This document shows, piece after piece, positions 45,290-64,000 of a stretch of 64,000 nt of DNA (the first letter of the stretch is position 1; every line of letters begins with the position of its first letter). Origin of the DNA: Ruminococcus sp. (lineage in GTDB: Bacteria > Bacillota > Clostridia > Oscillospirales > Ruminococcaceae); NCBI GenBank assembly GCA_017626015.1, contig JAGAJO010000012.1:1-64000 (forward strand). Reading direction: 5' to 3'. Under the pieces are notes generated by a model. That model was not told the DNA's origin. It saw nothing but the letters and a program-made list of their open reading frames with translations, and made no database searches. The position numbers and the translations under genes were made by a program.

Positions 45290-45871
45290 GTAGGTAAACA
45301 CTGCAAATGCGGAGCAAAAATGCACGGTATGAAGTCAGTGCGTAAGGGTCATACTTATCATTACTTCTACTGCTCGGCGAAATGCGGTGCGCCTGTAGTA
45401 CATATGGAGGAGGTTGACGAAGCGGCTAAAAGATACCTCTACACGCTCTTATCGGACGAGAACCAACAACGCATAACAAAAGCCCTCAGAGAATACAAAG
45501 GGGCTGAAAGAGAGTGTATAGCAGACTTTAATGCTATTCTCAAAAAGAAGATAGACGGGAAGCAGAAACGATATGACACGCTTATGGGAAACCTTGCAAG
45601 TGGTATACTTCCTGCTGAGGTCATTTCCGATATAGGCGTTGAAATGAAGTCTCTTAAGGACGAAATTGAATGCTTAAAGGCTACCGAACCGCCGAAAGAC
45701 TACACGGTGGAGCAGATCACAGCGTGGCTGAGTGCGCTAAAAAGCAATCCCGACGAAACAGCTATACATCTGTTGATCAAGCGTATAGACATAAAAAATA
45801 AAACCGAGATCAACATACAAAGTACGTTAACTTCGGTTTTAGGTGAAATTGGTTGCGGGAGCAGGATTTGA
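45290..45871 (+). pseudogene. C-terminal remnant of a large serine recombinase
   Basis: The frame encodes a recombinase zinc ribbon (CKCGAKMHGMKSV ... YFYCSAKCG), a coiled coil (about 70 residues rich in Lys/Glu) and a terminal TnpX-like segment (LLIKRIDIKNKTEINI). The catalytic N-terminal domain and recombinase domain are missing; the frame is closed by a TGA at 45266-45268 upstream. The reading frame ends inside the tRNA-derived att sequence, so its original 3' end may also be lost. It is a leftover of an older mobile element. Confidence 0.75.
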
Positions 45872-45894
45872 ACCTACGACCTTCGGGTTATGAG
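45850..45894 (-). repeat. Left attachment site: 3' half of tRNA-fMet
   Basis: 45 bp that on the minus strand read from the anticodon loop (CTCATAACCCGAAGG) through GGTTCAAATCC to CCCGCAACCA, the 3' half of an initiator tRNA-Met. The CCC anticodon-stem half and CAU anticodon fit fMet. The sequence to its right is not a tRNA 5' half, so this is a displaced fragment and not a functional tRNA. It matches 56316-56360 at 44 of 45 positions. Confidence 0.85.
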
Positions 45895-46001
45895 GGATAA
45901 ATCAATATTTTCGCCGCTTTTCATAACCTCTCACAAACGCCCGTAAATCAAGGCTTTCAGCGTTTTATCTTTTCATAGGATGCTGTAAGTTTAAGCTGTT
46001 T

Positions 46002-46041
46002 TTAGTGCCCTTAGTGCCCTCATAGTGCCCTAAAAATGCCC
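46002..46041. promoter_or_regulatory. Probable integrase arm-type sites, left end of element A
   Basis: Three tandem copies of AGTGCCC(T) occur at 46004, 46013 and 46024, followed by the variant AATGCCCT. The same pair, TTAGTGCCCT and ATAGTGCCCT 11 bp apart, recurs at the right end (56224-56244). Short repeats near both ends of a tyrosine-integrase element are typical arm-binding sites. Confidence 0.6.
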
Positions 46042-46046
46042 TCGAT

Positions 46047-46202
46047 TTATTCACTTTTGCTGTCGTCCCGCTCTGGCTTTTCTTTGTCGTCTGTCTGCTC
46101 ATACTCAGCAAGCCGCTTATTGTATCCTGCGTTCATAGCCTCAGCTAATGCCCGGCTTTGTTCTGCTGTCAAGCTCATAAGTTTACTCTCAAATTCATTC
46201 AT
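46047..46202 (-). CDS. Small element protein of unknown function
   Basis: 51 residues from ATG 46202 (GGAGG 9 nt upstream): a helical N-terminus (FESKLMSLTAEQSRALAEAM) and a very polar Lys/Glu/Asp tail. Leftmost gene of element A, just inside the integrase arm sites. No family recognised. Confidence 0.6.
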   Translation of the reverse strand: MNEFESKLMSLTAEQSRALAEAMNAGYNKRLAEYEQTDDKEKPERDDSKSE

Positions 46203-46233
46203 GTAAACATACCTCCAAATAATTGTTGTGTAA

Positions 46234-46275
46234 GCCGCTCTAGAACGCACAGAAACGCATCAGGGCGGCTTTTGT
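46234..46275 (+). terminator. Hairpin carrying the AGAACGCACAGAAACGC motif
   Basis: GCCGCTCT (46234-46241) pairs with AGGGCGGC (46262-46269) using one wobble; TTTTG follows on the + strand. The loop contains AGAACGCACAGAAACGC (46242-46258), which is repeated exactly at 46796-46812 inside another weak hairpin. Confidence 0.45.
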
Positions 46276-46338
46276 TCGTTTAGTCGATTAGTTTCATATC
46301 TAAAGCATTACAGTATGTGATAAAGCCCGCTTTTCATT

Positions 46339-61967: not shown

Positions 61968-62170
61968 ACTGCCGCCCCCTGTTCACCTGAGTTAAGGTAG
62001 TCGATAAACAAATCAAGATTGATAAGTACTTTACGTCCTGCCCTTATGTACTTGATCTTGTCCTGCTTTACAAGCTGTCTTACAAAGTATTCGTGTAGAC
62101 CTGTTTCTTGTGCTGTTTGCTTGATCGTCCTCATTCGGGGGACTTTGGTTGATACGTGGATAGTATTCAA
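61964..62170 (-). CDS. xis: Excisionase-like protein of element B
   Basis: 68 residues from TTG 62170 (GAGG 6 nt upstream). MerR/excisionase-type winged helix: IKQTAQETGLHEYFVRQLVK, QDKIKYIRAGRKVLINLDLF. It would direct the integrase toward excision. Intact here, in contrast to the frameshifted copy in element A. Confidence 0.8.
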   Translation of the reverse strand: MNTIHVSTKVPRMRTIKQTAQETGLHEYFVRQLVKQDKIKYIRAGRKVLINLDLFIDYLNSGEQGAAV

Positions 62171-62297
62171 AATATACCTCGCTTTCATCTTGCGTTCTTG
62201 CTGAAAACGTGGTATAATGTCAGCAAGAACATTTTCAAAAGTGGTTAATGTTTCTTAGCAGGCTTAAGCCCGCTCACCGTCTGAATGTTGGTACCGT

Positions 62298-62516
62298 TCA
62301 GGCGGTTTCTTTTTGCGTCGAATTCAATTCGGGAAATATTTCAGCTACTGAGCAGCTCAGGCAATCTGCGATTTTCTTAGCTTTGGAAAATGTCAAATTT
62401 CTTTTTCTCTGCTTAACCAAATCCGTTATCGTGGTTCTTGAAATGCCTGTAACTCTGGAAAGCTCCGAAATGCTGATCTTCTTTTCTGTCAGCTTGTACG
62501 ATAAAATATTATTCAT
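62298..62516 (-). CDS. XRE-family HTH protein, Cro-like (element B)
   Basis: 72 residues from ATG 62516 (GGTGAAG upstream): ISISELSRVTGISRTTITDL (about 15-34) and FSKAKKIADCLSCSVAEIFP. First gene of the minus-strand replication operon and divergent from the repressor at 62693, the Cro/CI-type arrangement. Confidence 0.82.
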   Translation of the reverse strand: MNNILSYKLTEKKISISELSRVTGISRTTITDLVKQRKRNLTFSKAKKIADCLSCSVAEIFPELNSTQKETA

Positions 62517-62645
62517 TGCTTGCTTCACCGTCCTTTTTTGATTATTGTACAGATTAATAGTCATAGTGTTCAGATGTCTGTACATAAATAATACCACACT
62601 ATAATAAAAAAGTCAAGGCTTTTCACGAAAATTTGTTCAAAACTC

Positions 62646-62674
62646 TTGACAATGTGTAAAAAATATTGTACAAT
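62646..62674 (+). promoter_or_regulatory. Repressor promoter of element B
   Basis: TTGACA (62646-62651), 17-bp spacer, TACAAT (62669-62674). The ATG is at 62693 with GGAGGTGA 5 nt upstream. TGTACA-type half-sites recur in 62540-62675 and may be operators. Confidence 0.65.
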
Positions 62675-62692
62675 ATATTTGGAGGTGATACA

Positions 62693-63292
62693 ATGATTTA
62701 TTGTAATTTATCTGGACTGATAGCCGAAAAACATATTAACATTTCTGTTTTATCCAAAGAAACCGATATTTCACGAACAACATTAACAAGCTTGTATTAC
62801 AACAATTTCAAGGGAATTCAGACCGAAACACTTAATTCCTTGTGTAAGTATTTTGAAATCTCCGCTGATAAGCTGCTTGTCTTTTCAAAATATGATATAT
62901 CGGTGGAACTGACAGACGGTAAAGTTATTGACTTTCAGAATAAGCCTAAACGAACAGATAACACGATATGTTTTAATATTTCTTTTGGTAAAATTCAAAG
63001 AAAGTGCAGGGTGTATTGTGGTTTATATTTCGATTGGCATTCAGGCTATGTATATATCGAACCAGACGTTCTATATTATGTGTCTGAAACAAACCCACAG
63101 AACGACCGAGAAAAGGATATTGCGGATAATAACGCTTTTTTCAAGAAAGTGTTTTCAGGTTTACCAGTTGAAATTAAGAATTATGTTTTAAATATGGTAC
63201 AAAATTTAATTACAAATCACATTAATGCAGAACTGACTAACAGCAATTTTGAAGTAAAAATAGGCAGAGTGTCGTTTAACGACTTAATATGA
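62693..63292 (+). CDS. CI-like XRE repressor of element B
   Basis: 199 residues from ATG 62693. The N-terminal HTH is INISVLSKETDISRTTLTSL and the segment NSLCKYFEISADKLLV matches the Cro-like partner at 62298-62516. A C-terminal domain of about 130 residues (VYCGLYFDWHSGYVYIEPDV) has no peptidase dyad I can see, so induction would be by an antirepressor and not by self-cleavage. It is not homologous to the element A repressor beyond the HTH. Confidence 0.78.
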   Translation: MIYCNLSGLIAEKHINISVLSKETDISRTTLTSLYYNNFKGIQTETLNSLCKYFEISADKLLVFSKYDISVELTDGKVIDFQNKPKRTDNTICFNISFGKIQRKCRVYCGLYFDWHSGYVYIEPDVLYYVSETNPQNDREKDIADNNAFFKKVFSGLPVEIKNYVLNMVQNLITNHINAELTNSNFEVKIGRVSFNDLI

Positions 63293-63415
63293 CCAATAAA
63301 AAATCCCGTCCCGACTAGCTCTCGGAACGAGATCAATTATAGACCTAACCGCAAAGTCAAGCCCCGCTATATAAAGCACTTAAATTAAAGCACTACGCAG
63401 AAAGGGCGTGATTTA

Positions 63416-64000
63416 ATGGCAAGTATCAGACCACGCAAAAATAAGAATGGAGAAATAACCTCATATCAGATCAGAGTTTTTAAGGGAACTGCTCCCGACG
63501 GTACAGAGCTTAAACCTTATACAGCCTCGTTCAAGCCCGACCCGAATAAAACAGATAGGCAGAACGAAAAAGCCCTCAATAAGTTTGTTGTCGAGTTTGA
63601 AGAAAAGTGCAAAAGCGGACTTGCCGCCGATAACCGCCAGACCTTTGCGGAGTATGCCGAATATGTGCTTGCACTCAAAGAACGTCAGGGAGCAAAGCAC
63701 CGCACGCTTGTACGCTATCGGGAGCTATTGAAAGTAATCAATGAGCATATCGGCTTTATGAAGCTTGCGGACATCAGACCCCAGCACCTTAACAGCCTAT
63801 ACGATCAGCTTTTGAAAAGCGGCTCACGCAGAACTGAGGACTTAGCCTCTCCTAAAACAGATATAAAAGCCTACTTGAAAAAGCATAAGCTAACGCAAGC
63901 GGAGCTGTCCCGCCGCTCGGGAGTTCCTGCAACGTCCATAACAAGCACGATAAAGGGCAGGAGCGTGAAAATCTCCACAGCAGAAAAGCTTTGCAAGGCT
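63416..64000 (+). CDS. int: Tyrosine integrase of element B, 5' part
   Basis: The first 195 codons, open at the window edge. The N-terminus MASIRPRKNKNGEITSYQIR and ALKERQGAKHRTLVRYRELL, DIRPQHLNSLYDQLLKSG align directly with the element A integrase. The same place in the core-binding domain (about residues 147-195) carries an XRE HTH, KLTQAELSRRSGVPATSITS, clearer than in A. The catalytic domain is off the window. AAAGGG precedes ATG 63416. Confidence 0.9.
   Translation, partial: MASIRPRKNKNGEITSYQIRVFKGTAPDGTELKPYTASFKPDPNKTDRQNEKALNKFVVEFEEKCKSGLAADNRQTFAEYAEYVLALKERQGAKHRTLVRYRELLKVINEHIGFMKLADIRPQHLNSLYDQLLKSGSRRTEDLASPKTDIKAYLKKHKLTQAELSRRSGVPATSITSTIKGRSVKISTAEKLCKA

Follow-up and report, generated by a model that had tools for sequence, protein, structure and literature searches.

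Why should a bacterial chromosome carry the 3' half of an initiator tRNA gene twice over, with neither copy joined to a 5' half? The question is raised by a 64,000-base window of Ruminococcus sp. (G000:C18:1-64000, the first part of the 173,751-base contig C18, JAGAJO010000012.1), in which a sequence-only reading had placed two related integrative elements in tandem, here called A and B, each filling one interval between repeats, with the intact tRNA-fMet gene expected 1-1.3 kb beyond base 64000. We conclude, with a probability that we put at about 85%, that A and B are small satellite-type integrative elements which excise as circles and which each inserted at the 3' half of tRNA-fMet by means of its own tyrosine integrase.

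Three copies of a tRNA-fMet half

The 45-bp tRNA-fMet 3' half was found at 45850-45894 and again at 56316-56360 with one mismatch, as the sequence-only reading had it; neither copy is joined to a tRNA 5' half, ARAGORN detected no tRNA-Met in the window, and Rfam at the gathering threshold gave no match in 39000-64000. Extension of the contig located the predicted gene at 0.99-1.06 kb past the window: an intact tRNA-Met(CAT) on the minus strand (C18:64987-65063), starting 987 bp past base 64000 and holding a third copy of the core. Searching the organism's own genome with the 45-bp repeat returned three copies, all on this contig (45850-45894, 56316-56360 at 98%, and 64986-65031), and with the 77-nt tRNA as query this gene was the sole complete tRNA-fMet in the 99.48%-complete assembly, the two halves being the only other matches (E 2.9e-17 and 6.6e-16, far above chance). 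The three cores, together with the intact tRNA at its predicted place, bear out the assignment of one element to each repeat interval (core to core, 10,466 bp for A and 8,671 bp for B), with repeats of the tRNA 3' part at both ends and an intact tRNA at one end, as in a tRNA-targeting tyrosine-integrase element. GC content is 41% in A and in B (B up to the window end) as against 45.5% in the left flank and 46.4% in the right. The two integrase genes lie where they had been placed and are 47% identical. The features on which this delimitation relies are the following.

45850-45894, minus strand: core1, tRNA-fMet 3' half bounding A on the left, interpreted as the host's displaced copy
46000-46044: left arm-type repeats of A, AGTGCCCT, three copies and one partial
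54651-56147, plus strand: tyrosine integrase of A, 498 aa, with a Cro/C1-type helix-turn-helix (HTH) inside the core-binding domain
56213-56246: right arm-type repeats of A, two copies and one partial
56256-56315, minus strand: terminator-like hairpin of A, in the tRNA direction, z -6.0
56316-56360, minus strand: core2, tRNA-fMet 3' half at the A/B junction, with G to U at tRNA position 45 (standard numbering, by hand)
56460-56510: left arm-type repeats of B, TGGACAA, two direct and one inverted
63416 to C18:64846, plus strand: tyrosine integrase of B, 476 aa, 195 codons inside the window

Past the window end B continues with arms at C18:64909-64928 and a terminator-like hairpin at about C18:64943-64978. 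Repeated motifs of about 7-11 bp flank the core on both sides in all seven elements in which arm repeats were compared (A, B, L012, L031, L008, L011 and L155, a faecal phage record considered below), there being two or three copies next to the integrase and two to five across the core from it, one of them inverted in B, L011 and L155. The motif itself varies, being AGTGCCCT in A and L012, TGGACAA in B, and GGCGCACAA, TGTGCGCCAAA, TTGAATTATT and AACACCCAAA in the remaining elements. We take this two-sided arrangement to correspond to the arm-type sites used by lambda- and Tn916-like integrases. The arms next to core1 are of the A type and those next to core3 of the B type, so that joint excision of A and B by a single integrase looks unfavourable; the difference in arms should also allow both integrases to use a common core while leaving the ends of the other element alone. 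Two like cores are present in other elements as well (L012, L031, L008, L011 and G226/L116).

A hairpin with a T-run follows the tRNA 3' end within 85 nt, in the tRNA direction, at 46 of 46 integrase loci, these being the partly non-independent loci with a placeable tRNA or core among 65 aligned integrases with or without the HTH insert; the same loose rule passes 54 of 230 composition shuffles. In the present locus the hairpins score z -6.0 (A), -4.5 (B) and -7.0 (a further remnant, C, described below). Integration cuts the tRNA off from its own terminator, and the elements appear to bring a replacement, predicted terminator. The repeats could also be tRNA gene fragments left by rearrangement, with no tie to the integrases, and misannotated partial tRNA genes are described as pervasive in tRNA gene sets (PMC9897764); but each half here is accompanied by an integrase end, arms and a hairpin, and loci built alike exist elsewhere at tRNA-fMet, tRNA-Arg and other genes, which makes such an origin highly improbable.

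Insertion by the integrases would involve strand exchange near the anticodon loop, in which case each element carries a replacement tRNA 3' half together with a terminator. Core1 would then be the displaced host half, core2 the half of A, and the half in the working gene that of B. The U at position 45 of core2 occurs in none of 21 distinct intact tRNA-fMet sequences compared. If this is right, the sole initiator tRNA gene found receives its 3' half and terminator from mobile DNA, and loss of B alone would leave the initiator tRNA with the copy of A, U at position 45 included. That the target is the initiator tRNA was upheld, but the choice is less special than had been suggested, since tRNA-fMet is occupied by further family members in other genomes and tRNA-Met islands have been published for Vibrio.

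To the left of A we observed a third layer that is absent from the sequence-only reading, with an open reading frame (ORF) that runs into the left repeat.

45320-45871, plus strand: element C remnant, C-terminal part of a serine recombinase, catalytic N-terminus missing, stop inside core1
45790-45849, other strand: strong hairpin and T-run directly 3' of the tRNA half core1, z -7.0

At E 1e-15 the protein matched two of 197 family genomes, one being its own and the other G033, where the relative is an intact serine recombinase (485-aa open frame, 46% across the region matched) with its stop codon in the 3' end of a complete tRNA-fMet. Searching 394 order genomes with the G033 protein at E 1e-70 gave one further relative, in G592 (56%), its stop again inside tRNA-fMet. 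In L082 and L160 about 20 bases of the tRNA-fMet 3' end are shared with the final codons and stop of the recombinase gene, which runs on the other strand. Both relatives found outside the organism's own genome (L082, L160) are thus serine recombinases abutting tRNA-fMet, and the window copy is one without its catalytic part. Genes of this sort would have entered at tRNA-fMet by site-specific recombination and, judged by these relatives, the DNA left of A is an older, decayed serine-recombinase layer of a type using the same tRNA. Two satellite-like elements and the wreck of a third are therefore stacked at one initiator tRNA gene, the sole one detected in the genome.

An HTH domain within the integrases

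Pfam Phage_integrase is present in both integrases, and the R-K-H-R-H-Y catalytic residues are invariant in two 33-row alignments. In the integrase of B, Pfam HTH_3 (4e-10) falls between the two halves of the core-binding domain, the inserted HTH occupying residues ~143-206; the insert of A is more diverged and gives only a weak match to the phage repressor family phrog_3 (0.0024). When at least 85 residues in this interval are scored as presence and at most 40 as absence, 41 of the 65 aligned integrases (A and B included) carry the insert and 24 do not. AlphaFold2 models of the A and L013 integrases (mean pLDDT 88.9 each) contain core-binding and catalytic domains and an N-terminal arm-binding-like domain, together with an HTH insert of about 65 residues. 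The modelled helical insert spans 153-208 in A and 150-203 in L013, between core-binding helices 3 and 4, and is bracketed in the A model by core-binding helices 123-133 and 220-239. All 93 residues of the solved lambda core-binding domain (2oxo) align within model range 75-244 (rmsd 1.6), so that the insert breaks into a domain of otherwise ordinary build. Over the whole structure, the Tn1549 integrase is the best match.

Similarity within the insert falls below that of the arm-binding region, both core-binding regions and the catalytic region in 16 of 17 pairs, the exception being L013/L031, where the second core-binding part is lower (93% vs 95% for the insert). For the insert, dN/dS is defined in six of eight pairs and lies there at 0.14-0.38, as against 0-0.17 in the other regions; by this measure the insert is constrained, but less than the other regions. 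The Cro/C1 core is conserved (Phe204 in 41 of 41, Ala189 in 40, Thr174 in 38, Gly169 in 33) and the exposed positions of the recognition helix are variable. Because the full Cro/C1 core is kept while the recognition helix changes fast, the inserted HTH is most likely a DNA-binding domain whose target lies within or close to the attachment site. It may instead have ceased to bind DNA and now act as a spacer or protein-contact domain, for example for the excisionase, as might be argued from the many changes tolerated in the insert between close pairs and from the tRNA-Leu(gag) target common to integrases with and without the insert, which is consequently not needed there. The Cro/C1 signature retained in 41 integrases and the dN/dS range just given point, however, to a fold under selection while the recognition helix varies, and we consider the loss of DNA binding a possibility of the weaker sort.

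Several narrower roles were considered for the inserted HTH. It is not a required selector of the tRNA, since L047 (without insert) and L069/L078 (with insert) share tRNA-Leu(gag), and tRNA-fMet integrases carry very different recognition helices. A function in reading the int promoter or as partner of the repressor is not favoured, the DNA shared by L013 and L031 starting at the int start codon and their upstream repressor DNA being unrelated or strongly diverged; nor is one in reading the arms, AGTGCCC arms being paired with quite different inserts.

No description of the inserted HTH was found in open full texts or in the accessible part of the main tyrosine-recombinase survey (PMC8138268), a scope outside which lie subscription papers, supplements and domain-database architecture lists. 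This architecture, absent from the literature searched and available in dozens of natural variants, is what is new here, tandem satellites and tRNA-Met islands being already in print.

Changes of tRNA target within the family

In a phylum sample of 299 genomes, 18 (G000 included) match a model of the insert-bearing integrase at E 1e-60; 19 loci were checked besides A and B, with the insert present in 6, absent from 11, one gene partial and one without a usable frame. Within the genus, integrase-family sequence lies near tRNA-fMet in at least five of 28 other genomes searched, with flanks fetched in part: G305 (a 33-residue scrap), G226 (a partial gene), G310, G315 and G319.

On a tree of 45 integrases from which the insert columns were left out, the target changes at least 10 times over the 31 labelled rows, the minimum of 200 label shuffles being 13. 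For the main clade (21 labelled rows) the choice between tRNA-fMet and tRNA-Arg requires at least five changes, a value equalled or undercut by 13 of 200 shuffles (mean 7.3), so that targets there track descent weakly. By this tree the integrase family changes repeatedly between tRNA-fMet and tRNA-Arg. Presence of the insert takes three changes, and the five insert-free rows never form one side of a branch.

Elements L013, at tRNA-Arg(ACG), and L031, at a tRNA-fMet half, are 97% identical in DNA from the int start codon to the core and unlike upstream; the left end of L013 is beyond its contig, and no tRNA was found in 21 kb of L031. Within int, 28 of 35 mismatches fall in codons 75-254 (core-binding domain plus insert, 180 of 477 codons; binomial p 5e-7), where synonymous changes are raised too, so that exchange of a segment is no less possible an origin than selection. 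How far the identity block reaches points to exchange at the anticodon edge, and we favour the reading in which the int-side tRNA half belongs to the element and would have been swapped in L013/L031. With nearly the same integrase and arms at two tRNAs, this is a natural pair for studying how an integrase changes its target.

From these observations we advance, as a tentative proposal whose odds we judge to be well short of even, that a clade of Bacillota-type tyrosine integrases gained a Cro/C1-type repressor domain between core-binding helices 3 and 4 as a third DNA-reading surface, diversifying fast and moving with the int-arm-terminator module and not with the repressor or int promoter. 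Through this surface each element might control its own integration (the choice among copies of the shared core, or the timing), so that satellites could accumulate at a single initiator tRNA and move between tRNA-fMet and tRNA-Arg.

Other arrangements were seen in the family. L016 has two insert-bearing integrases (10001-11494 and 11949-13307) converging on one tRNA-fMet half. L117 (G315) holds, in 1227-12940, a tRNA-fMet, then the C-terminal scrap of an integrase, a distantly related serine recombinase (23%) and an insert-type integrase that is almost complete, an arrangement that looks like serial insertions at one site. A third, more distant integrase of the organism itself (G000:C21:9309-10061) is without the insert.

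The kind of element and its known counterparts

Besides the features listed above, A contains:

46339-46755, minus strand: ORF of unknown function, phrog_2412 at 3.4e-5, no Pfam match
47225-48007, minus strand: cargo cassette of DUF2442 (just below cut-off), DUF4160 and a small ORF
48215-49188, plus strand: two small ORFs, the first related to phrog_6244 and a RecE-like family
49526-50164, minus strand: sigma-70-like regulator
50706-53108, minus strand: VapE-domain helicase/primase, replication-type, phrog_256, 1024 bits
53115-53361, minus strand: excisionase-like gene, frameshifted and split over two frames, HTH_17 at 2.4e-5, just below cut-off
53797-54510, plus strand: HTH repressor-like gene

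and B contains:

56844-57781, minus strand: Fic-domain protein and a small ORF weakly matching DUF6290 (below cut-off)
57967-58392, plus strand: HIRAN-domain protein, 69% relative in L155
59656-60600, minus strand: sigma-70-like regulator, 61% relative in L155
61021-61967, minus strand: DUF6291 protein and phrog_2113 protein
61964-62170, minus strand: excisionase-like gene, open frame, phrog_66 and Pfam HTH_17
62298-62516, minus strand: Cro-like regulator, divergent from the next
62693-63292, plus strand: repressor-like regulator

The two share a gene order which reads, left to right, core, left arms, cargo, sigma-like gene, replication-type or DUF6291 gene, excisionase-like gene, regulators, integrase, right arms, hairpin and core. 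The cargo cassette of A, which is presumably toxin-antitoxin-like, includes a DUF2442/DUF4160 pair found in the L008 element too, its small ORF giving weak DUF6290/ribbon-helix-helix matches below cut-off; the Fic protein of B is PADLOC match PDC-S04 (SoFic-like). The pieces of the A excisionase-like gene match successive parts of the whole L012 gene (71% of 28 and 55% of 42 residues), and because of its frameshift, which is possibly an assembly error instead, A may be unable to leave alone. A is probably locked in place, and B looks whole.

At 10.5 kb and 8.7 kb, with integrase, regulatory and replication-type genes, A and B have the size and content of satellites, and from their sequence they fit the published description of phage satellites (PMC13376191), in which att repeats bound 7-20 kb that hold genes for integrase, regulation and replication but no structural genes. 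Transfer between cells would probably be by helper phage. Among the ORFs of A and B scanned we recognised no packaging or interference genes of phage-inducible chromosomal islands (PICIs), namely small terminase or capsid remodelling, pac and cos sites lying outside this search.

A and B might also be remnants of integrative mobilisable or conjugative elements (IMEs or ICEs) and not phage satellites. ICEs, too, integrate at tRNA genes and carry int-xis modules; the top structural match is an integrase of Tn1549, and the related element L008 has a replication gene of rolling-circle type. The ORFs scanned in A and B include no relaxase, coupling-protein or type IV secretion system family, however, and the VapE helicase/primase of phage type, the divergent regulators, the layout like that of the satellite phage Javan607 and the occurrence of a B-like element in a faecal phage record all argue for satellites, so that we regard an IME or ICE origin as unlikely. 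The L008 gene (5353-6234, REP_ORF2-G2P) stands in an otherwise similar element at tRNA-Arg(ACG), and replication genes seem to be swapped between elements.

The B-like record L155 (MT836843.1; human faeces, Mexico; 8514 bases) is a phage record without annotation, and is read as circular because of its 124-bp end repeat. It has relatives of the B sigma-like (61%), DUF6291 (48%), phrog_2113 (69%), excisionase-like (61%) and HIRAN (69%) genes; its integrase has the insert, and its core is tRNA-Leu-like by eye vs L078. A Mexican study of virus-like particles exists (PMC8361208), and our guess is that the record derives from it. Across phages and plasmids the best integrase matches are below 60% identity, and 80% query coverage is reached in just four phage records and one plasmid record. 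Another faecal phage record, L157 (MT836267.1; 11.4 kb, 124-bp end repeat), has a large terminase (Terminase_3) and, by eye, no capsid gene and an integrase without the insert.

A number of points weigh against A and B being satellites that entered as described. L155 was deposited as linear and UNVERIFIED, and it is for this B-like record, and for neither A nor B themselves, that a circular form can be read; a viral_contigs scan with the integrases gave 257 pattern matches and no relative. Capsid, terminase and relaxase families are absent among the ORFs of A and B scanned, the small ORFs lying partly outside the scan, and no packaging gene was recognised among them, so that helper use is inferred; the A ORF at 48140 matches a tail family weakly (phrog_8693, 9e-4) and non-structural families more strongly. 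The strain comparison called for by the sequence-only reading produced no empty site among the genus stretches fetched (20 stretches of 19 genomes, plus 18 stretches of eight genomes), and no conserved flanks were found among the stretches of the eight; flank proteins searched against genus stretches (45% identity, E 1e-20) gave three matches, none with both flanks joined. The structure does not fix the order in which A and B arrived. Finally, in L013/L031 one int-arm-terminator module stands beside two different tRNA halves, and exchange at the CCA edge would explain the pattern too, making the working half the host's, core2 that of B and core1 that of A.

A looser search with the flanks (E 1e-6) turned up, in G310, a gene related at 41% to the DinB-like one of the right flank and, in G297 (L114), a 28-32% relative of the left-flank helicase about 4 kb from the tRNA-fMet of that genome. 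This left-flank gene (39809-44881), which adjoins the hotspot, is a very large helicase-nuclease gene (DUF4011, AAA_11/12, MTES_1575 nuclease; GC 36.9%) and PADLOC match PDC-S37 (Hhe).

In layout A and B resemble the satellites of streptococci. The Streptococcus satellite phage Javan607 (MK448569.1) carries a primase and an HTH gene on one strand; on the other come a hypothetical gene, at the position that the repressor has in A and B, and then the integrase. Javan607 and the S. thermophilus satellites (PMC13376191) resemble A and B in having 7-20 kb between att repeats and no structural genes. A and B differ from them in host group and in the HTH inserted in the integrase, and their helper dependence is putative. 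PICIs are likewise small satellites with doubled att motifs and an attP carrying a replacement gene end, and some are reported in tandem at one attachment gene, including fis and tRNA-Ile2 (PMC10111431); those described there come from Enterobacteriaceae and Pasteurellaceae, and A and B differ in having no recognised packaging or capsid-remodelling gene. At tRNA-Met the counterparts are the integrase-borne Vibrio islands VPaI-1, which like A and B has a 45-bp direct repeat, and VSP-II, the accessible text leaving unstated whether the tRNA is the initiator (PMC1464126). These islands measure 24-27 kb and are described singly, unlike the satellite-size stack formed by A and B.

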